Shown piece after piece: positions 4,238 through 43,004 of a stretch of DNA of 43,004 nt. This DNA comes from a virus. Each line of letters begins with the position of its first letter. The stretch's first letter is position 1. The notes beneath the pieces were generated by a model. That model ran no database searches, was not told the origin of the DNA, and worked only from the letters and a program-made list of their open reading frames with translations. Position numbers and translations under genes: made by a program. The stretch covers positions 1-43,004 of IMG/VR virus record IMGVR_UViG_3300025311_000367, one strand, 5' to 3'.

Positions 4238-5848
4238 CTATTCGACGAAGGTCATCTTTAGCGGGCCATGGCCCACCGGCTGGTAGTACGGCCGGGCTTT
4301 TGCGGTCGCGGCACCGATGGCACCCTCGGTGCCGTCGCCGGCATCGGCCCACCAGGTTGGTTCGGTCGCGCCGGAGTTGCCCGGGGTGATGACCTCATAG
4401 ACGTAGCCGTTGTTTACGGTAGGTCGCAGGCGGGTACCAGTGCTCAACTCAAGCCCCGCCTGCCAGGCCACGCCGGGGAAGTCGGCAGCGAAGGCAAACA
4501 CATCGCCGCCACCATATACCTCGGTGTTTACGCGAAACTCGCCAACTGCGTTTGAGTAGGCACTCCCCATAACCACATAGCCTGTATCGCGCTTCTCGAA
4601 CACGGAAACTTCAGCATTTACCAACGCTCGTACCGTGCCGAGCAACGGGTGAATCTCCTCAACCACACCATCCAGGTAGGCGGGATCGCCATCTATAACC
4701 GGTCCGCCACCACCACCGCCAAGGCTTGCCGTATCAAAGGTGAACAGTTGCTGCGCACCACCGGTTTGGAGTGACGTTCTACTCGACGCCATTTCCGGAT
4801 AAACCGCCGAGGGGGTATAAGTCACCCCGTTTAGCACTACCGGACTTCCTCCAAACGTCACCCCGCTCAGCCCCACGATATGTCCAGCGGCTGACGCTAA
4901 GTAGCGATAGCTATCCCCTGAAGGCGGCAAGTAATACTTGTTCGCTGCAACATAATTCCCTTCTTGCAACCTATCTAGGCCAACGTCTTCTGATACTACA
5001 ACCCTAAACGTCAAACGCCGACGCACCCTCAGAGTTATATTTAAATGGCCAGAGGAATCAGTTTGCCCAAGACCGTAGTACCGCCCTCCCGCCTCATATA
5101 ACAACGGCCTGGCAGTCGGGACACCAAGCACCAGAGTGTCGATAACCAAGTTAATAAATTCTACAAAGTACGGGCGTGGAGCAGGCAGCGTTGCGTCATC
5201 GAACCAGCCAGCAGCAGTGAAGCGCCCCTCAAACAAGGCGTCCAAGCTGGCTAGCGTTGGTGCAGTAGTTGTCCGTGTGTACCAGCTCCCAATAGTTGAT
5301 GTCCACTTAACCACATCCGTGAATACCGTATCGCCTGGCGCACCAATATTCACGAAACGATCATAAGCACCCAAAAAACCACCGACAAAAACAACTCGAT
5401 TGAACTGCTTGGGCTCTAAAGAATAGAAAGCCGAGCCGTTATTCAGGAGTGAATTATTTGTCGAGGTAGTTGATGCGTTAACCAGACAATCGGTAAAGTA
5501 GCAATTAAAGAAAGGGACCGACACAGCTGTACTAGTTATCTGCAACATCTGCACCCGGAGATAGCAATTTAGCAGGGTGACACCCGCCATAATTGCCGCG
5601 CCAGCAGATGCGCTGTTTAAAACCATTGCAATAGCATACCCATCGGCATCAATAATTTTTGATTTATAGGTGCCCGCTTCCGAACTCGAAAGCCCCCCGC
5701 TCCCAGAGTACGAGCAGTCCATGGTCACTCTAAAATACCCCTCCCCAGCGGGATCACGCAGAACCGCACCAAGCGCTGCATCGCTGCTTATCAACCAAGG
5801 ATCTATTTTAGTTCCCTGGCCTATCAGCCCATCCGTAACAGCTGTCAT
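4238..5848 (-). CDS. Probable tail fibre / tail spike protein
   Basis: 536 aa. Begins with a short anchor-like stretch and continues in a Ser/Thr/Gly/Asn-rich, beta-strand-rich middle with repeated aromatic and turn motifs (NCYLRVQML, NCYFTDCLVNAS), a flexible Gly run (SLGGGGGGP) and a C-terminal region containing NNGYVYEVITPGNSGATEPTWW, a motif seen in phage carbohydrate-contact domains. Roughly 4700-5830 is noticeably more AT-rich than the flanks, which suggests exchange of the host-range module. Start overlaps the upstream stop by 1 nt. Receptor binding is inferred, not shown. Confidence 0.6.
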   Translation of the reverse strand: MTAVTDGLIGQGTKIDPWLISSDAALGAVLRDPAGEGYFRVTMDCSYSGSGGLSSSEAGTYKSKIIDADGYAIAMVLNSASAGAAIMAGVTLLNCYLRVQMLQITSTAVSVPFFNCYFTDCLVNASTTSTNNSLLNNGSAFYSLEPKQFNRVVFVGGFLGAYDRFVNIGAPGDTVFTDVVKWTSTIGSWYTRTTTAPTLASLDALFEGRFTAAGWFDDATLPAPRPYFVEFINLVIDTLVLGVPTARPLLYEAGGRYYGLGQTDSSGHLNITLRVRRRLTFRVVVSEDVGLDRLQEGNYVAANKYYLPPSGDSYRYLASAAGHIVGLSGVTFGGSPVVLNGVTYTPSAVYPEMASSRTSLQTGGAQQLFTFDTASLGGGGGGPVIDGDPAYLDGVVEEIHPLLGTVRALVNAEVSVFEKRDTGYVVMGSAYSNAVGEFRVNTEVYGGGDVFAFAADFPGVAWQAGLELSTGTRLRPTVNNGYVYEVITPGNSGATEPTWWADAGDGTEGAIGAATAKARPYYQPVGHGPLKMTFVE

Positions 5849-7395
5849 CAGTCTGCATCCCCTCTAACCTGAATCTGGAATTTGTCATCCTCAACCGTGC
5901 CCTGCCCCGCCAGTACGGTGCGGCAGATCCATAGCGGGCCGAGGCATGAATCAGTGTTGAAGCGAATCGCGTTACCCGCCGCCCAGCCGCTGCCCCAGCC
6001 ACCCGCCGCGATGGTGAAGTACGGCGCACTGTTGGCCGGGTTGATCGGCGCGCAATCCACACCGATGTTGCCGGTGGCGATGATGCCGAGCTGCTGCTCG
6101 ACCACCTGGAAGGCACTGCTGCTGGTAAACACCAGCGCCCACTTGCCGGCGATGCTGCCCTTGTTGGTGACAACGGGCGGGTAGTTGAGCTGGTCGTACT
6201 GGGCGGTGGTGCCGTCGCCCACCACGTTGTCGCTCCAGTTCGGCGCGCCGCTGTTCCAGGTCTTTTGCGCGAACCATTTGTACAGCCGCGCCTGCAAGTC
6301 GCCCCAGGCCACCGCGCTGGAGACCTTCGCTGTAGCCGGCGGCAGATCCCACGGCACAGGGCTGTTGATGCCCAGCACACCGCTGATCTGCACCTCTGTA
6401 CAGACCGTCATGTGCTCCACCAGGTCGCGCACGGTGAGCGGCGGTACCAGCGGTACGCCCTCGGCATCGTTGAGCACCAGCGGGTCCGCGAAGGTCACGC
6501 GGCCGAGCAGCTTGTCGACGGTGTAGGCCTGCGGGTCCAGCCCCACGCCGTTGGCATCCACCACCTCGATGTCGGCCTGGTGATCGCGCGCCAGACTCAC
6601 CACCAGGCCGGGCGTTGGCGTGCCGATGCCCGTCTCGGCGGTGTGGTGGATGACCAGCACCTCGCCATCGCGGTAGATGGGCACGCGGCCATCAGCCGGC
6701 AGGCGCACCGGGTCGAGGCCGATCAGCTCGGCATTCAGCGGCAGGCTGGTGTAGAGCACGGTGTTGTAGCGCAGCAGCAGCGGGATAACCGGGATCTCAC
6801 TGTTGCCGCTGGCGTCCGCCGGGTTGCTGGTGAAGCGCACGCGGATGATGCCGGTGGCGATATCGACAGTGCCATGCACCACCGGCCCGGTGAACTCGCC
6901 GTTGTTGTTGGCGGTGGCCACCACCACCGCGGCGGTGTCTGCGCGCACCACGGTGAGCTGCAGGCTGCCCGGGCGCAGTGGCGCGCCGGGGGTGCGCCAG
7001 GTGGCACCGGTAATGCTGAACCCGCTGTTGGTAGTCAGGCAGCCCTGCAGGCTGATGCTGGCACTCGCGCCGGCCGGGTAACTGTTGAGCCGCGCTTCGC
7101 CGGCGGCGTAATCCACGGTGCCGACTGCCACCCCGGCGTTGGTCTGGCTGCTGATGTTCTTGTAGAGCACGCCGTCGCGGTCGACGTAGGTTTCGCCGCC
7201 CCAGCTGAGGATGAGCGAGCCGGGCAGGATCGGCTCCTCAATGGCTGGCAGCAGGTCGAAGGTAAGCTCGGGCGCAGGCTGGCTGTCGGTTTGCGGGCCG
7301 TAGCTGGTACCGGCGGGCTGGGCACGCATCACCAGGGTGCCACCGAACTGCTCCTGCAGGGTGGTGGCGGTGCTGATCAGTTTGACATCGGACAT
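5848..7395 (-). CDS. Baseplate / tail structural protein with PGS-type beta repeats
   Basis: 515 aa. Residues about 57-116 and 141-220 hold two copies of a unit that begins LPGSL/RPGSL and contains a short G-x-V-D-x-A-x-G turn, the same unit found four times in the adjacent 669-aa protein. The C-terminal 170 residues (WGDLQARLYKWFAQKTW... and the Gly-rich AAGGWGSGWAAGN) are different. Virion location is inferred from the position between the fibre and the 669-aa protein. Confidence 0.65.
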   Translation of the reverse strand: MSDVKLISTATTLQEQFGGTLVMRAQPAGTSYGPQTDSQPAPELTFDLLPAIEEPILPGSLILSWGGETYVDRDGVLYKNISSQTNAGVAVGTVDYAAGEARLNSYPAGASASISLQGCLTTNSGFSITGATWRTPGAPLRPGSLQLTVVRADTAAVVVATANNNGEFTGPVVHGTVDIATGIIRVRFTSNPADASGNSEIPVIPLLLRYNTVLYTSLPLNAELIGLDPVRLPADGRVPIYRDGEVLVIHHTAETGIGTPTPGLVVSLARDHQADIEVVDANGVGLDPQAYTVDKLLGRVTFADPLVLNDAEGVPLVPPLTVRDLVEHMTVCTEVQISGVLGINSPVPWDLPPATAKVSSAVAWGDLQARLYKWFAQKTWNSGAPNWSDNVVGDGTTAQYDQLNYPPVVTNKGSIAGKWALVFTSSSAFQVVEQQLGIIATGNIGVDCAPINPANSAPYFTIAAGGWGSGWAAGNAIRFNTDSCLGPLWICRTVLAGQGTVEDDKFQIQVRGDAD

Positions 7396-35751: not shown

Positions 35752-36363
35752 ATGACCACTATCAACCGCACCACTCTCCCCGCCATCGGCAGCCCCTTCG
35801 AGGGCGGCTTCTACATGGGGCTCTACCTGCTCGCCGGCCAGCTGCAGGCGCTGATCCGCGCACCGGCCGCAGAAGGCTTCAATGCCCCGCAACCCTGGGG
35901 CCAATGCGGCACCATGATTGCCGGTGCTAACAGCTTCAACGATGGCCAGGCCAACACACGCGCCATGGCCGAGGCCGAATGCCCACACGCCACCTGGGCG
36001 CTGAGCCTGTCGATAGGCGGCCATCAGGACTGGTTCATCCCATCCCGCGACGAAACCGAAATCGTCTACCGCGTTTGCAAGCCAACAACTGAAGAGAACT
36101 ACTGCAGCTTCCGCGACGGCGACAACCCCAGCAGCGTTCCGGCTGGCTACCCCTACACAGCAGAGTCACCGGCCCAGAGCAGCATCGCAGCCTTCTGCCA
36201 GGGCGGCGCAGAAGCGCTGGAGGATTGCAGCTACTGGACCAGCACGCAGAACGGCCCGTACGGCGCGTGGATTCAGTACTTCGACGGTGGCACCCAGAAC
36301 GGCGTAGGCAAGGTCAACGCCCGGCCCGCTTTCGCCGTCCGCAGAATCACCGTCACCCCTTAA
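35752..36363 (+). CDS. DGR target protein 1 (C-type-lectin-like, DUF1566-like)
   Basis: 203 aa. Leader AAGAGGCACAGCAC before ATG 35752. The body is the formylglycine/C-type-lectin-like fold often called DUF1566: FYMGLYLLAGQLQALI, ECPHATWALSLSIGGHQDWFIPSRDE, CSYWTSTQ and the C-terminal ARPAFAVRRI. The final 38 residues (from Ser-Tyr-Trp on) contain the variable repeat at residues 165-198. No signal peptide or membrane segment. By DGR analogy (Mtd, TvpA) this is a ligand-binding surface made diverse by mutagenic retrohoming; its ligand is unknown. Paralogue of the next gene. Confidence 0.88.
   Translation: MTTINRTTLPAIGSPFEGGFYMGLYLLAGQLQALIRAPAAEGFNAPQPWGQCGTMIAGANSFNDGQANTRAMAEAECPHATWALSLSIGGHQDWFIPSRDETEIVYRVCKPTTEENYCSFRDGDNPSSVPAGYPYTAESPAQSSIAAFCQGGAEALEDCSYWTSTQNGPYGAWIQYFDGGTQNGVGKVNARPAFAVRRITVTP
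36245..36344 (+). repeat. DGR variable repeat 1 (VR1)
   Basis: 100 nt aligned without gaps to the template repeat (37635-37734, offset 1390). Eleven differences, all at template adenines (to G, T or C); the remaining 89 positions are identical, including GCCCGGCCCGCTTTCGCC and GTCCGCAG at the 3' end. The base just after is A where the template has C. Affected codons include the template AAC, GAA, GAC and GAT codons. Confidence 0.92.
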
Positions 36364-36383
36364 CCACTTCCAGGCTTTACCGC

Positions 36384-36400
36384 CGCGCGCGCAGCGCGCG
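36384..36400. repeat. GC hairpin downstream of VR1
   Basis: CGCGCGC (36384-36390), loop GCA, GCGCGCG (36394-36400), 40 nt after the end of VR1 and beyond the stop codon. A matching hairpin follows VR2. Such structures next to the variable repeat are needed for efficient homing in the Bordetella phage DGR. Confidence 0.65.
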
Positions 36401-36428
36401 TTCGGCTCCAAATTTTGAGGACATGACC

Positions 36429-37052
36429 ATGCAACAGATCACCCTGGAAGTAGGCGGCACCACGCTCCGCACCCAAAACGCCCTGCTCGCACGCCACGTG
36501 CTCGAGCAGGAAGCGGGCCTGGCGATGGTCGGCACCGCGTTCATCACCGGCGAACTCACCAGCACCCTGACACCGCCCGCCATCGGGCAGCACTGGCACG
36601 GCCAGGGCGGCACCTATGTCGGCGTGATGCGCGGCGTTGACGGCCAGCCGGACTACCACCTGATCGCCCCCAAGCACGCGCAAATCGCCGAAATCACCTA
36701 CGGCGCACGCGGTAAGAAGATCGAGGGTGCTGGCTGCGCGCGTGACGGTTTGGCCAACACCAGCGCCCTGCTCGCCTCCGGCACCGAACACCCAGCGGCG
36801 CAGTGGGCAGCCGACCAAGAAGCCGACGGCCACCGCGACCTGTACCTCCCCGCCCGCGCCGAGGCGTTCCTCTGCTGGGCCAACATACCCGAGCAGTTCA
36901 CAGACAAAGGCTGGCGGCTCACCAGCACGCAGGGCGGCCCGTACGACGCGTGGGTTCAGCACTTCGGCGATGGCTACCAGTACGGCGGAGTCAAGGTCAC
37001 CGCCCGGCCCGCTTTCGCCGTCCGCAGAATCCTTATCACTTCACCAATTTAA
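36429..37052 (+). CDS. DGR target protein 2 (C-type-lectin-like)
   Basis: 207 aa from ATG 36429 (GAGG 8 nt upstream; ATG 36423 would sit too close to it). MQQITLEVGGTTLRTQNALL is a distinct N-terminus, then PAIGQHWHGQGGTYVGVMRGVDGQPDYHLIAPKHA, DGHRDLYLPARAEAFLCWANIPEQF and GWRLTSTQ, the same lectin-like scaffold as target 1. Variable repeat at residues 167-200. No signal peptide. Two targets fed by one template are seen in some DGRs; here they may be separate binding proteins or partners of one complex. Confidence 0.87.
   Translation: MQQITLEVGGTTLRTQNALLARHVLEQEAGLAMVGTAFITGELTSTLTPPAIGQHWHGQGGTYVGVMRGVDGQPDYHLIAPKHAQIAEITYGARGKKIEGAGCARDGLANTSALLASGTEHPAAQWAADQEADGHRDLYLPARAEAFLCWANIPEQFTDKGWRLTSTQGGPYDAWVQHFGDGYQYGGVKVTARPAFAVRRILITSPI
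36928..37027 (+). repeat. DGR variable repeat 2 (VR2)
   Basis: 100 nt aligned without gaps to the template repeat (offset 707). Fifteen differences, all at template adenines, none at other bases. VR1 and VR2 differ from each other at 13 positions, so each was diversified on its own. Both continue with AGAATC after the shared GTCCGCAG core where the template has AGCATC. Confidence 0.92.
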
Positions 37053-37062
37053 GCCCTTAACA

Positions 37063-37081
37063 CCGCGCGCGTAGCGCGCGG
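37063..37081. repeat. GC hairpin downstream of VR2
   Basis: CCGCGCGC (37063-37070), loop GTA, GCGCGCGG (37074-37081): 8 bp plus a flanking A-T pair, 36 nt after VR2. Same core as the hairpin behind VR1 but a different loop (GTA against GCA). Absent in this form next to the template. Confidence 0.65.
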
Positions 37082-37099
37082 TTAGCGAGTTTTCTCAGC

Positions 37100-37462
37100 A
37101 TGGCCATAGCCCAACACCTGCCGATCTATAAGCGCTCTGGCGACCTCGCCAAGCTCGTGGCGGACCTTGTTAAAAACTGGAGGCGCGACTTTAAACGCAC
37201 CCTCGGTGACAAGGTGCTCAACGAATGCTTTGACGTGTCGATCCTGATCTTTCGCGCCAACACCGCGAGCGGCCAGCAGCGAGTCGCCTTCATTCAGCAA
37301 ACCCTGGAACGCATCCAGGTTGTAGAGCTGATGCTGCGCCTGGCCGCCGACCTGCACCTGGTAACCCCCGAGCAACATGGGTCCGCCATCAAGATCACAG
37401 ACGAAATAGGCCGGCAGGCCACAGGGTGGAAACGAAATGCCGCCGCATCGCCAGCCGTATGA
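37100..37462 (+). CDS. avd: DGR accessory protein Avd
   Basis: 120 aa, helical, basic: MAIAQHLPIYKRSGDLAKLVADLVKNWRRDFKRTLGDKVLNECFDV and ERIQVVELMLRLAADLHLVT. This is the Avd four-helix bundle (S23-like), which forms a pentamer and binds the DGR reverse transcriptase and template RNA. Lies between target 2 and the template repeat as in Bordetella phage BPP-1. Only weak ribosome-site signal upstream, so translation may be coupled to the target gene or driven from a weak site. Confidence 0.85.
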   Translation: MAIAQHLPIYKRSGDLAKLVADLVKNWRRDFKRTLGDKVLNECFDVSILIFRANTASGQQRVAFIQQTLERIQVVELMLRLAADLHLVTPEQHGSAIKITDEIGRQATGWKRNAAASPAV

Positions 37463-37634
37463 GCGCCACGGCCCTCATACCATAGCGATTTTGATTCTGG
37501 TCGTGCCGCTGGCTCACAAGGCCACCGCTATGCGCACCAGAGGCACCACCTGGCATTGTCCCGGCAGGCCTCGCGCAGTTCCGCTACTGATCGGCCTCGG
37601 CCTTTGGCAGCGTGACGTAAATAGCACGACCTGG

Positions 37635-37734
37635 CGCAGAACGGCCCGAACAACGCGTGGATTCAGAACTTCGACGATGGCAACCAGAACAACGAAGACA
37701 AGGACAACGCCCGGCCCGCTTTCGCCGTCCGCAG
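37635..37734 (+). repeat. DGR template repeat (TR)
   Basis: 100 nt source copy for both variable repeats, lying between avd and the RT. The 72 nt from 37637 hold 28 adenines, arranged as many AAC codons (eight in the target frame), which give amino-acid change without stop codons when A is replaced. The 3' part from 37709 (GCCCGGCCCGCTTTCGCC...) is invariant and ends AGC where the VRs have AGA, the IMH*/IMH difference that directs one-way transfer. Confidence 0.92.
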
Positions 37735-37784
37735 CATCGAACGGTATTACTGGCGGCCATGCTGATTTTTCTATTGAGCAACTC

Positions 37785-38855
37785 ATGCGGGCCTACTACG
37801 ACTGCCGGCGCAACAAACGCAGCAGCGGGTCAGCCCTGGCATTCGAGTTCCAGCTGGAGCGCAACATCATGCAACTGCTTAGCGAGCTGAACAGCGGCAC
37901 CTATCAGCCCGGCCCCTCGATCTGCTTTGTGGTTACCCACCCAAAGCCGCGCGAAGTGTGGGCCGCTGACTTCCGTGACCGCATCGTCCACCACATGCTC
38001 TACAACCACATCGGCGCGCGCATCGAGCGTAGCTTTATCGCTGATTCCTGCGCCTGCATCGAGGGCCGCGGCACCCTGTACGCCGCGCAACGCCTGGAAC
38101 AAAAAGTGCGCAGCATCACCCAGAACTGGAGCCGCCCAGCCCACTACCTCAAGTGCGACTTGGCCAACTTCTTTGTCAGCATCGACAAGCACGTGCTCGC
38201 CCAGCAGCTAACTGCCCGCATACCCGAGGCCAATTGGCGCGCTCTGGCCCTGCTGATCCTCTGGCACGACCCGCGTGACAACTACCAGCTGCGCAGCTCA
38301 CCGCGCCTGCTCAACCGCGTACCCCAGCACAAACGCCTGACCTGCCAGCCAGCACACCTCGGCCTGCCGATTGGCAACCTAAGCAGCCAGTTCTTCGCAA
38401 ACGTCTACCTCGATGCCCTGGACCAGTTCGCCAAGCACACCCTGCAGGCCAAGCATTACATCCGCTATGTGGATGACTTCGTGCTGCTGCACCACAGCCC
38501 ACAACAGCTCAACACCTGGCACGCCCAGATAGAAACCTTCCTGGCCGAGCGCCTGCACGCCCGCCTCAACCCCAGCAAAACCATTCTGCAACCCGTCAGC
38601 CGCGGCGTGGACTTCGTCGGCCAGGTCATCAAACCCTGGCACCGCACCACCCGCCGCAAAACCGTAGCCCACGCCATCAAGCGCATCAGTTCGGTGCCGC
38701 TCCCGGCACTGCGCGAAACCGCCAACAGCTACTTCGGCCTGCTCACCCAAGCCACCCACAGCCATACCGACCGCCGCAAAGTGGCCAAGGCCATCCTGCT
38801 GCGCGGCAAGGCCGTGAATGCAGGGCTGACCAAGACGTACAAGGGGGCCGCATGA
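37785..38855 (+). CDS. DGR reverse transcriptase
   Basis: 356 aa from ATG 37785; the frame is open upstream through the template (to 37437), so an earlier non-ATG start (ATT 37773 or 37746) that adds FSIEQL is possible and would fit the family N-terminus better. RT motifs: EVWAADFRDRIVHHMLYN, YLKCDLANFFVSIDKH with the first catalytic Asp, GLPIGNLSSQFFANVYLDALD (the DGR/group II-type motif 4) and YVDD at residues 228-231 with YIRYVDDFVLL. Its stop overlaps the methyltransferase start by ATGA. Copies template RNA with adenine-specific errors. Confidence 0.93.
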   Translation: MRAYYDCRRNKRSSGSALAFEFQLERNIMQLLSELNSGTYQPGPSICFVVTHPKPREVWAADFRDRIVHHMLYNHIGARIERSFIADSCACIEGRGTLYAAQRLEQKVRSITQNWSRPAHYLKCDLANFFVSIDKHVLAQQLTARIPEANWRALALLILWHDPRDNYQLRSSPRLLNRVPQHKRLTCQPAHLGLPIGNLSSQFFANVYLDALDQFAKHTLQAKHYIRYVDDFVLLHHSPQQLNTWHAQIETFLAERLHARLNPSKTILQPVSRGVDFVGQVIKPWHRTTRRKTVAHAIKRISSVPLPALRETANSYFGLLTQATHSHTDRRKVAKAILLRGKAVNAGLTKTYKGAA

Positions 38856-40594
38856 CCGCTTTCAACGATCATCTAAAGCATGCTGCACAGCAAGCCCTAC
38901 CCCTCAACCGCGAACTGTACGTTGACCTGTTCGCCGGCGCTGGCGGCGCAAGCAGTGGCGGGGCCCGGGTCTACCGCGACCCGGACGTGGCCATCAACCA
39001 CAACCCCATCGCCATCGCCGTGCACCGCGCCAACCACCCCAGCACCCGCCACTACATCAGCGACGTGTTCGAGGTGGACCCACTCGAAGCAACAGGCGGG
39101 CAGCCGGTAGGCATCTTGTGGGCCTCACCGGACTGCCGCCACTTCAGCCGCGCCAAGGGTGCCGCCCCGCGCAGCGCGCGAGTGCGCATGCTGGCCTGGG
39201 TGATTGTGCATTGGGTTTACGCCACCCGCCCGCGCCTGCTCTTTATGGAGAACGTGCCGGAGTTCATGACCTGGGGCCCGCTCGACGACGCTGGCCACCC
39301 TATCAAGGCCCTGGCTGGCCGCACCTTCGCTGCGTTCGTTGCCTGCCTCAGCACCGGCCTGACCGAAGACCACCCCGACTTCCCAGAAATCATGGATGCG
39401 GTCGGCCAATGGGTGCCCAAAGCCGCCCTGGTACGCGGCCTGGGCGTTAACTTCGAGCACCGTATTCGCCGCGCAGCTAACGCTGGCGTGCCCACTATCC
39501 GCACACGCTGGTTCGGTATAGGCCGCACCGATCGCAGGCCCGTGGTCTGGCCGGAGCCCAGCCACCACGAACACCCCAAGCGCAACCAGCAGCCTTGGCG
39601 GCAAGCCGCCGAGTGCATCGACTTCAGCGACCTCGGTACATCGATCATTGATGAGCGACTGGTGGAGAACACCAACGTCCGGGTAGCGAAAGGCTTCTGG
39701 AGGCACACCGTCATGGCAGAGTCGCCCTTTTGCGTCCCGCTGGATGACCAGGCGCTGGCGGCAGCGCATCTCACCGAGTTCGCCAATGCCAGCAGCCAAC
39801 GCACCTTCGCCGCAGACGAGCCACTGCGCACCCAGGTGGCGCAGGTAAAAGGCGGACACTTCGCCATGGCCAGCGCGCACCTGGCGAAACCTCAGCGCCA
39901 GTTGACCGCAGCCATGGTTACCCTGCGCAAAGGCAGCGTCGGCTCAGCCCTGTACGCGCCGCTGGGCACAGCCACCTGCAGCAGCGGGCACCACGCCCTG
40001 GCTGCCTGCCACTTCGAACAGGCCAACGGTGGGTTCTACCAAGGCGACGGGCGCGCTGCATCGGCCCCAGTCAGCACCATTTGCGGCAAGAGCAACCAGC
40101 GCCTGGCCACCGCCTACCTGATCAAATACTACGGCACCGGCGGCCAGTGGCAGAGCTGCAACGAACCTGCGCACACCCTACCAACCAAGGCCCGTCTTGG
40201 CCTGGTAACCGTGCACCAGGTGCCGGCCGACCTACTGCCACCCAACCTGATGGCGAAAGCCAAGCTCTGCGCCCACTTCCTCCACAAGTACCTGCCGGAG
40301 CACTTCCCTGAGCCGGTAGACCTGGTGGTGCTGGGCGACTACGTGCTGGTGGATATCAGCCTACGCATGCTCAAGCCCCAGGAATTGAAGCTCGCCCAGG
40401 GCTTTGCACCCGACTACATCGTCGACCGCGGCCTTTTCCTCAACGAAGCCACCGGCCAGGCCGAATGGAAGGCCCTCACCATCGCCCAGCAGATCAAGTT
40501 GATCGGCAACAGCGTCTGCCCGGGCGAGGCCGAAGCGCTGATCGCCGCGAACGACGCAGACATGATCGAGCTGTACCGCAAGGAGGCAGCATGA
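38852..40594 (+). CDS. DNA cytosine-5 methyltransferase
   Basis: 580 aa. SAM motif I DLFAGAGGAS (25-34); catalytic Cys in SPDCRHFSRAKG (92-95), a variant of the usual PPC motif; ENVPEF (133-138, motif VI); RRAANAGVPTIRTRWFGIG (motif VIII); GNSVCPGEA near the C-terminus (motif X). No restriction enzyme gene beside it, so it is probably an orphan methylase protecting phage DNA or marking the genome. Translation overlaps the RT stop, so its level is tied to RT expression. Confidence 0.9.
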   Translation: MTAFNDHLKHAAQQALPLNRELYVDLFAGAGGASSGGARVYRDPDVAINHNPIAIAVHRANHPSTRHYISDVFEVDPLEATGGQPVGILWASPDCRHFSRAKGAAPRSARVRMLAWVIVHWVYATRPRLLFMENVPEFMTWGPLDDAGHPIKALAGRTFAAFVACLSTGLTEDHPDFPEIMDAVGQWVPKAALVRGLGVNFEHRIRRAANAGVPTIRTRWFGIGRTDRRPVVWPEPSHHEHPKRNQQPWRQAAECIDFSDLGTSIIDERLVENTNVRVAKGFWRHTVMAESPFCVPLDDQALAAAHLTEFANASSQRTFAADEPLRTQVAQVKGGHFAMASAHLAKPQRQLTAAMVTLRKGSVGSALYAPLGTATCSSGHHALAACHFEQANGGFYQGDGRAASAPVSTICGKSNQRLATAYLIKYYGTGGQWQSCNEPAHTLPTKARLGLVTVHQVPADLLPPNLMAKAKLCAHFLHKYLPEHFPEPVDLVVLGDYVLVDISLRMLKPQELKLAQGFAPDYIVDRGLFLNEATGQAEWKALTIAQQIKLIGNSVCPGEAEALIAANDADMIELYRKEAA

Positions 40595-41190: not shown

Positions 41191-42813
41191 TCAGCCTGTA
41201 ATGTCTTCACTTGACACCCAGGCCCCGCTACGTCGATCAACCCGCAGTAGCAGCGGCCGCCCGGCCTTCGGCACCAACATCACATCAATGCTCTTGCCCT
41301 GCCGCCCTTCCTCACCAATGCCACGCATATAAATGACGATGCGCTCGAAGGTATCCATCACCAGCTGCCGCACCTGCTCCCGCGCGGCATAATCATTGGC
41401 CTCAACTTTGCTGGCGAGCGCTGCCCAACGCGCCGCCTGCTCCGGCTGCACATTTGAAGAGCGGGCGGCCAGCAAGCGTTCAAGCTGCTGCACTTCACCC
41501 TGCGCTTCGCCCAACTGCTGCTCCACTTCACGGGCCCGCCGCACAAACGCCAACGGCGCAGCACCACTGTCATCGGCCATCACCGCATCCGTAATTTTGC
41601 CCAGCTGACGCTCAAGCTCCGTGGCAGTTCGCCGCGCGGTCGCCAGCTGCTCGCGGAGGCCCCTGCCATCATCTGGCGTCTCATGCAGTCGCTGCAGGTT
41701 GATTTGCTCACCGCAGTAATTGAGTATCGCCCGCTCGATGGGCACCACGCTGCAGCTACCACCCGCCGCGCAACCACCATTTTTGCTGTACGACACACAA
41801 TGCAATCGCCGGTGGCCATCCAACAGGCTGCCGTCCGCTTTAGCTCGGCCCATAAGATTCTGAGCCACCAACGCTGTGCCGCAATACCCGCAGAACGTCC
41901 GGCCGATGCCGGTGATAATCCCAGGAATCTCGCCAGCGCCACGCCGCCGGTGCCGCTGCCCGGCCAGCAACTGCAGGTCGTCGTATTCGGCATCAGTCAG
42001 CAGCGCAGGGTAGTAACCCTCAAGTAAATAGTCCTCGCCACCGACACTGATCCGCTTGGCCCCGCGCAATGCCGGCAGCTTAATCAGCCTGTAAATCTGC
42101 TGGCCGGCGATGCCCCAGTCGGTCAGCGCATAACCCTCATCGTGCATCAGCTTTGATGCCCTGCCAGCACCAAGCCCCTGCTTGTACAGCTCAAGCGCCC
42201 TGCGCACCGCCGTTACACGCTCTGGCACAAGCCGCCATTCGCTGCCCGTCCATTCCAGCCACGCCGGATCGTTGCCATTGCGCACCAGGCCGCGATAAGT
42301 GCCAGCCTGCCAGCCCTCGCACAGCCGCCGAATGCTCGCCTTAACCCGCTTGCTCTTGGTGTCGGATTCTTCGTGCGCACGGATCATCACCAGCAGGCTA
42401 TACACGAGGTCCATCGGCTGTGCCTTCAGACCGGCACGGTTGTACTCCCTACCGTCGCTGGCTGTCACCACCGTGATGCCGCCATTGATGATCTGCGCCA
42501 ACTGCGCTTGCGCCTGGATGGGCTCAGCACGGCTCAAACGATCAAGCCCCTCAACAATCAGCACAGACCCATCAGGAATGCGGCCCTCGCTCACCGCCAG
42601 CAGAAATGCACCCAGCGCCCCCTGCTTGACGTGCTGCTGGTGGTAAGCAGACAGCCCCTCATCGCGCAGCGACAACGACTCATCCAACACCAACCCCCGC
42701 GCGGCCGCCCACGTCTGCGCGTAAAGCAACTGACGATCTACACTGCTACCCGTCGACTGCCGTGGATCAGAAAACCGCAGATAGCTGTATACTCGCGCGC
42801 TATTTTTTGTCAT
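41191..42813 (-). CDS. Large serine recombinase (phage integrase)
   Basis: 540 aa. Catalytic domain: YLRFSDPRQ with nucleophile Ser15, VDRQ with Arg27, and [13 protein letters not shown] (about 87-98); long E helix [16 protein letters not shown]. Recombinase domain, zinc ribbon [10 protein letters not shown]...[12 protein letters not shown], then coiled coil (LEQQLGKI..., [19 protein letters not shown]). Integrates and excises the prophage between attP and attB. It is divergent from rimO with only 23 bp between start codons, so one attachment site must lie at or near its 5' end. Confidence 0.93.
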
Positions 42814-42836
42814 GCCCAGCCCCGAGGAAAACCACG
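42814..42836. other. Recombinase-rimO intergenic gap, likely attachment region
   Basis: 23 bp containing the rimO ribosome site GAGGA (42824-42828, 8 nt before the ATG). No promoter fits here, so the signals for both divergent genes must lie in the coding sequences beside it. The prophage-host junction is expected in or near this gap; the matching left junction is not in view. Confidence 0.4.
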
Positions 42837-43004
42837 ATGTCGAAGAAAGCAGGAAGTATAGGGTTTATATCCCTCGGGTGCCCCAAGGCTTTGGTCGATT
42901 CCGAACGTATCCTGACCCAGTTGCGTATGGAAGGTTATGAAGTGGTGCCGACCTATCAGGACGCCGATGTGGTGGTGGTCAATACCTGTGGTTTTATCGA
43001 CAGC
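42837..43004 (+). CDS. rimO: RimO, ribosomal protein S12 methylthiotransferase (5' part, partial)
   Basis: First 56 residues, running off the window: [41 protein letters not shown] and [15 protein letters not shown]. The Cys residues of GCPK and NTCGF are two of the three N-terminal UPF0004 iron-sulfur ligands. RimO is a radical-SAM enzyme that methylthiolates an Asp of S12. This is host DNA and identifies the genus as Pseudomonas. Its native upstream region has been displaced by the prophage. Confidence 0.95.

Follow-up and report, generated by a model that had tools for sequence, protein, structure and literature searches.

The locus described here is best explained as a working diversity-generating retroelement (DGR) carried by a temperate siphophage whose host is Pseudomonas-like, a reading to which we give a probability of about 0.9; in it, the template repeat (TR) would also code for part of the reverse transcriptase (RT), and the structured RNA RT-15 probably stands in for a 3′ spacer. 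It lies in a window of 43,004 bases, which is the whole of the IMG/VR virus record IMGVR_UViG_3300025311_000367. The features by which a DGR is recognized in sequence are found in it, namely TR/VR differences confined to adenines, an RT with an SQ motif, an Avd protein, VRs at the 3′ end of target genes of predicted lectin fold, and hairpins present at the VRs and absent at the TR. The adenine-specific pattern, its recurrence and recent change in related loci, the independence of the two VRs, the target hairpins and the gene set are directly supported by the data. The steps that connect them are modelled on the DGR of Bordetella phage BPP-1: the RT, together with Avd, would copy the TR RNA into cDNA with errors at adenines, and each cDNA would then replace the 3′ end of one of the two lectin-like target genes, in separate events. 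Homing and the roles proposed for Avd and for the hairpin are likewise taken by analogy from BPP-1, and the folded RT-15 on the 5′ side of the TR is for this RT the probable functional counterpart of the 3′ spacer RNA that serves the RT of BPP-1.

As a DGR the locus is ordinary, and the adenine-only TR/VR signature is in itself a textbook case of an already known kind. What goes beyond this earlier observation is the overlap of the RT frame with the TR, the presence of a structured RNA on the 5′ side of the TR, and the wide spread of the arrangement. The family is large, active, and partly carried by culturable Pseudomonas and Burkholderia phages; it has no visible 3′ spacer RNA, the basis of the best-studied mechanism, and thus makes it possible to test directly how generally that priming mechanism applies. 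It also offers a test of a template that encodes its own polymerase. The architecture is informative and deserves experiment.

Gene content and adenine differences in the window

The record encodes a terminase, a portal protein, a tape measure protein, tail proteins, a primase, a CI-like repressor, and a serine integrase. Because its right end (42762–43004) encodes the start of RimO, a host protein, the record is a prophage; the rimO start adjoins the serine integrase gene, and the insertion site is probably beside or in rimO. Among the matches listed, the closest RT from a named genome shares 96% identity and belongs to a Pseudomonas MAG, and a temperate siphophage of a Pseudomonas-like host is the best explanation for the record as a whole. 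The only close copy of this phage record, L004, is identical to it over 4406 bases. The cassette genes lie on one strand, in the order target 1, target 2, avd, TR, RT, and then a C5-cytosine DNA methyltransferase (table 1). The latter is a neighbour, outside the DGR mechanism; Haboob, Cruim01, and QDWS likewise have methylase genes downstream of the RT.

Table 1. Features of the DGR cassette and neighbouring genes, in positions of the window.
Feature	Position	Strand	Basis and remarks
Target gene 1	35752..36363	+	ORF, 203 aa; C-type-lectin-like, VR1 at 3′ end
VR1	36245..36344	+	11 differences from TR, all at template A
Hairpin 3′ of VR1	36384..36400		DNA fold; GC-rich, 7-bp stem, GCA loop; whole-stretch z-score only −1.6
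Target gene 2	36423..37052	+	ORF, 209 aa; lectin-like by sequence profile, VR2 at 3′ end
VR2	36928..37027	+	15 differences from TR, all at template A
Hairpin 3′ of VR2	37062..37082		DNA fold; GC-rich, 9-bp stem, GTA loop; z −4.7
avd, accessory variability determinant	37100..37462	+	Pfam bAvd, 41.5 bits (cut-off 40)
Structured RNA, Rfam RT-15 (RF03018)	37446..37636	+	160.4 bits, E 1e-39, gathering 82; ends at first TR bases
TR (template repeat)	37635..37734	+	100 nt, 29 A
In-TR ATG, in frame with RT	37677..37679	+	One of four in-frame ATGs as far as the RT core
Reverse transcriptase	37677..38855	+	Start drawn at in-TR ATG, a candidate start; IGNLSSQ and YVDD motifs
C5-cytosine DNA methyltransferase	38852..40594	+	Gene after RT, overlaps RT stop
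Serine integrase of prophage	41191..42813	−	Context gene

A first-pass annotation of the window, made by eye, had claimed that every VR–TR difference falls on a template adenine and that the two VRs differ from one another at 13 positions. Gapless comparison of the three 100-nt stretches by program gives the same result: all 26 of the 26 differences lie at TR adenines, none at a C, G, or T of the template, and VR1 and VR2 differ at 13 positions. Under random placement, the chance of all differences falling on A is 2.4e-7 for VR1 and 3.1e-10 for VR2 (7.5e-17 jointly), and in controls in which a VR was taken as the template, or C, G, or T as the permitted base, 5 to 11 mismatches lay off the permitted base. 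Among the 29 template adenines, 18 are altered in at least one VR and 8 in both, 5 of these 8 to the same base. Strict A-specificity stops exactly at the end of the 100-nt stretch, because base 37735, directly 3′ of it, is a C in the TR and an A in both VRs; three matching bases follow, after which VR/TR homology ends. The first bases 3′ of the TR also differ among related loci, following no rule. We looked for a VR/TR difference in the GC-rich 3′ end, as in BPP-1, and discarded it, positions 77–100 being identical in the window. No additional copy of the TR was found anywhere in the 43,004-base record. The annotation had further read the pattern as the product of error-prone copying at template adenines, with past activity on both targets. 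This reading is supported by the avd and RT genes, by the hairpins that lie downstream of both targets, without one at the TR, and by the VR changes among near-identical relatives, which are almost confined to template adenines (see below).

The RT gene product matches Pfam RVT_1 and PHROG 1423 (E-value 4.7e-113), and its best PDB sequence match is 8ub7 (E-value 1.7e-39), whose IGSLTSQ aligns with the IGNLSSQ of the window RT. An SQ motif is named for DGR RTs in the accessible part of PMC3521204, and by this motif the predicted protein belongs to the DGR group of RTs with an SQ-type motif. The avd product is similar to PHROG 3206, “Avd protein of DGR” (E-value 3.7e-26), and scores 48.2 bits with the NCBIfam Avd model, under the 80-bit cut-off of that model.

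Target 1 is similar to PHROG 4245 (E-value 4.8e-27) and to Pfam Lcl_C, with an E-value of 4.6e-6 that falls under the curated cut-off of that family; its AF2 model (pLDDT 96.1) has as best PDB match 8q4e, the C-terminal domain of Legionella Lcl (E-value 1.5e-4), so that the modelled structure matches a C-type-lectin-like fold. Target 2 is similar to the same PHROG 4245 (E-value 4.9e-25) and its family profile matches 8q4e (E-value 4.5e-8), a profile match by which we call it putatively lectin-like; its AF2 model is weak within the VR, and a fold search with this model gave no match. Because both targets align solely to the C-terminal part of PHROG 4245 (about 409–581 of 583), they are predicted to be lectin domains devoid of the long N-terminal part of that family. 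DNA folding of the sequence downstream of the TR in the window revealed no hairpin such as those found 3′ of VR1 and VR2. Among relatives, a stem of length at least 6 is present in 191/387 VR flanks, versus 27/387 shuffled flanks and 46/237 TR flanks. The loops have three bases here, in contrast to the four-base loops of the phage DGRs described in the part of PMC3240598 available to us.

Adenine-specific change in related loci

We assembled 273 loci or records, 266 of them from sequence scans (two scans contributed the best 80 of 211 and the best 80 of 528, respectively) and 7 from phage records, which together with the window gave 274 sources. A recognizable RT core and an A-biased template were present in 243 of these, after exclusion of 21 sources without RT core and 10 without template. 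Two in which the TR lies far from the RT were set aside, leaving 241, and four more had no registered TR end, leaving 237. The cassette arrangement is widespread in Pseudomonas and Burkholderia-type phages: Burkholderia phage Magia and Pseudomonas phages LPPA56, Cruim01, and Haboob belong to the same family, with a TR, two A-diversified VRs, Avd, and RTs at 63 to 75% identity.

In 405 unique TR/VR pairs, 5297 of 12036 template adenines were changed (44%), versus 797 of 28464 other bases (2.8%), a ratio that is inflated by the A-favouring score used to pick the pairs. The non-A changes are mostly found in the first 13 positions, and the adenines changed to G (2575), T (1779), or C (943). A less biased comparison is provided by 44 locus pairs with RTs at least 97% identical and the same TR, whose VRs differ at 456/2478 template-A sites versus 7/5090 other sites. 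Many of these pairs are one phage represented twice, unchanged; where differences occur, they mostly number 9 to 21 A sites per VR. For instance, the RTs of L199 and L200 are identical and their VRs differ at 14 and 10 A sites. In another pair (L054/L113), one VR is identical and only the other differs, at 19 A sites, and the two targets are thus written separately. Moreover, the VRs of one genome mutate independently: in 173 unique two-VR loci, VR1 and VR2 agree at 462 of the 1150 sites mutated in both (40.2%) within a genome, the same proportion as between genomes (40.3%), which rules out a correlated mutation of both VRs by one shared cDNA. Some template adenines are rarely changed (position 99 in 0/405, position 52 in 1/326, and position 67 in 4/396), for which protein selection and enzyme bias cannot be separated in these data. 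An AAC context raises the mutation rate of A, according to the accessible part of PMC12875486. In L052, L071, L072, L077, L082, and L007, one VR is found several kb away on the upstream side, in most cases within additional small genes of lectin-like type, and differs from the same TR almost exclusively at A.

These data bear on two explanations that would dispense with a working DGR in this phage. In one, the two VRs result from gene duplication and diversifying selection at ligand-contacting codons, with no RT-driven process, in line with the membership of both targets in one protein family and with the nature of the changed codons, which are of the AAC type and likely lie in surface loops. 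However, the changes follow a single base of a third copy that is not a target, the bases in between are identical, and phages with identical RTs (L199/L200, L156/L085, L014/L084) display 10 to 21 template-A differences per VR and no others, so that we give this explanation practically no credence. In the other, the DGR is real but dead, and its VRs are fossils of earlier activity; such a state would be hidden in a single record, whose identity to its sole close copy means that change in the lineage cannot show. We nevertheless consider it quite improbable, given that the RT frame, the YVDD and IGNLSSQ motifs, Avd, the TR, RT-15, and the hairpins are all intact and that close relatives in the family are changing. 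A working DGR therefore remains our preferred reading.

The RT frame across the TR and the RT-15 RNA

In the window, the RT frame has in-frame ATGs at 37437, 37530, 37677 (inside the TR), and 37785 (at the RT core), and is open from the first of them. All four are candidate RT starts: no clear Shine–Dalgarno sequence was seen upstream of the ATG at 37677, and other in-frame ATGs lie up- and downstream. Translation appears to be already under way at the TR end, because the phase between TR and RT is kept and the linker evolves as RT-frame codons. Indeed, the distance from the TR end to the RT core is 2 mod 3 in 237/237 loci, with ten different lengths from 11 to 56, and linker substitutions, counted in 75 disjoint pairs of related loci, favour the third position of RT codons (37/32/107 for positions 1/2/3, P 5e-13). 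Where the TR contains an in-frame stop, the 20 nt that follow the TR give 4/8/24 substitutions in the same order. The sequence ahead of 37785 thus shows codon-like evolution that sets in directly at the TR end. No third-position excess in the RT frame is seen inside the TR (29/46/28 by RT codon position), where the target frame dominates the substitution pattern, and no coding signal was detected in the 92 nt before the TR in the upstream-start class (19/16/19 by position 1/2/3, 11 pairs). From these sequence comparisons, it is well supported but not proven that the TR doubles as RT coding sequence, with an RT frame that reaches the 3′ half of the TR, if not further.

The predicted RT start varies in the family, lying inside the TR, ahead of it as in some Magia relatives, or shortly behind it as in Haboob. 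An in-frame ATG lies inside the TR in 185 of the 241 loci having the TR adjoining the RT, and 111 of the 241 have this ATG and no ATG, GTG, or TTG between the TR end and the RT core. An in-frame stop is present inside the TR in 81 loci, all of which have an ATG behind the stop, located in the TR in 80 of them and beyond it in L160. The in-TR ATG cannot be the start of every RT, as it is absent in 56/241 loci. In nine of these 56, including Haboob, an ATG directly follows the TR; the remaining 47 lack this one too, and their frame is open through the whole TR and far upstream. Counting unique sequences, the frame of this upstream-open class stays open over 210 nt or more ahead of the TR in 43/43, with an in-frame ATG at −110 to −60 in 36/43, and the frame is closed before the TR in 85 of the 133 sequences with an in-TR ATG. 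The in-TR ATG exists only if one target codon ends in T, as it does in 124/131 cases versus 147/1393 other Asp/Asn codons, which mostly end in C (Fisher 2e-95, a value that ignores kinship and concerns a class partly defined by the ATG itself). In raw counts, a missing in-TR ATG is associated with an open frame (closed in 0/33 versus 45/70, P 3e-11), but a phylogenetic test of this link, with only 3 independent pairs, was not significant. A 103-RT tree requires 20 changes of start class and, on its well-supported branches, a minimum of 4 changes of the TR-stop label. One locus provides a natural case of TR and RT separation: in L031, an insertion of ~1 kb (5002–6000) separates the two and carries an ORF that by eye resembles a cytosine methylase, and the RT has its own ATGs after the insertion. 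L032, at first taken as another such insertion, was dropped because its TR was mis-called; its RT-15 ends 110 bases before the RT match.

RT-15 was found in 13 of the 15 related loci searched, the exceptions being L041, which is cut off upstream of its RT, and L081. Nineteen of its 37 predicted pairs show compensatory changes in an alignment of 36 sequences. In BPP-1, the spacer RNA recruits RT and Avd and primes cDNA synthesis (PMC12875486, in the part accessible to us), and by analogy RT-15 is probably an RT/Avd-binding domain, the counterpart of that 3′ spacer. On the 3′ side of the TR in the window, Rfam families gave only a chance-level match, on the other strand; same-codon conservation, about 2.5 times expectation in the TR, drops to background (1.2) as soon as the TR ends; and no stable fold was obtained in 37735–37810 with DNA parameters. 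A conserved RNA within the RT gene 3′ of the TR was thus not found by Rfam search, synonymous conservation, or folding. No 3′ spacer is visible, and the RT frame appears to begin before the TR end. We tentatively propose, as a possibility somewhat short of even odds, a permuted template RNA, with RT-15 as the RT-binding domain 5′ of the template, no priming spacer on the 3′ side, and a template that itself codes for an early part of the RT that copies it. If so, priming must differ from that of BPP-1 (through a 5′ domain folded back, or a nicked target), and translation of the RT would compete with the use of the same RNA as template, a built-in feedback.

Two other accounts would deprive the overlap or RT-15 of the roles suggested here. 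The RT frame might be open across the TR by composition only, stops being scarce in it because of AAC-type codons, and the RT might start elsewhere, at 37785 or at a non-canonical codon after the TR, which would make the overlap meaningless. The ATG available at 37785 in the window, whose equivalent was used as RT start by the annotators of LPPA56, and the absent third-position signal inside the TR are in agreement with this scenario; on the other hand, it is hard to reconcile with the codon-like evolution of the residues before 37785 from the TR end onward, with a phase conserved over all ten linker lengths, and with the many loci in which the in-TR ATG is the last possible start before the core, and we hold it to be unlikely. 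More serious, although still doubtful, is the alternative that a BPP-1-type 3′ spacer does exist but is hidden inside the RT coding sequence, too variable to be seen, RT-15 being a regulatory leader only. Pseudoalteromonas phage ACA1 indicates that spacer RNA can be coding, as a sub-threshold RT-14 match lies 3′ of its TR inside the RT gene. Against such a hidden spacer in the window stand the Rfam result, the drop in same-codon ratio right after the TR, and the lack of a stable fold over 37735–37810. We therefore retain the reading in which the TR is probably part of the RT coding sequence and RT-15 probably takes the place of the 3′ spacer.

Comparison with known DGRs

The BPP-1 DGR shares with the present one a TR, VR changes directed to A at the 3′ end of the target gene, Avd, a DGR-type RT with 8ub7 as the best PDB sequence match, and a hairpin after the VR (PMC3240598, in the part consulted). 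It differs in having one target instead of two, a TR that ends 144 nt before the RT gene where the RT frame overlaps the TR here, and the Rfam Phage_DGR RNA, which in BPP-1 lies 3′ of the TR and before the RT gene whereas RT-15 lies 5′ of the TR here; no Phage_DGR RNA was found 3′ of the TR, between TR and RT, in the window. BalMu-1 similarly has an RT-14 RNA 3′ of its TR, before the RT gene, and no Rfam RNA match was obtained for the DGRs of VP58.5 and Bacteroides F2.

An overlap of TR and RT was listed as an arrangement as early as 2012, along with DGRs that have two VRs, such as that of Pseudomonas fluorescens WH6 (PMC3521204, from the accessible text). In that accessible text, the overlap group is set by annotation, with neither a translation test nor an RNA 5′ of the TR. 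Going by its predicted RT frame, the window would fall into DiGReF group 3, in which the TR overlaps an end of the RT ORF. In the partly accessible literature that we searched, outside the main RT-15 and DGR survey papers, we found no translation test of the overlap and no structured RNA 5′ of the TR. Closest in arrangement are Vibrio phage VP58.5 and ACA1, in which the annotated RT gene also starts upstream and the TR lies inside the RT ORF; unlike here, the TR is apparently read in the target frame. The RTs of VP58.5 and ACA1 (L279 and L281) would thus carry a lectin-like N-terminal stretch.
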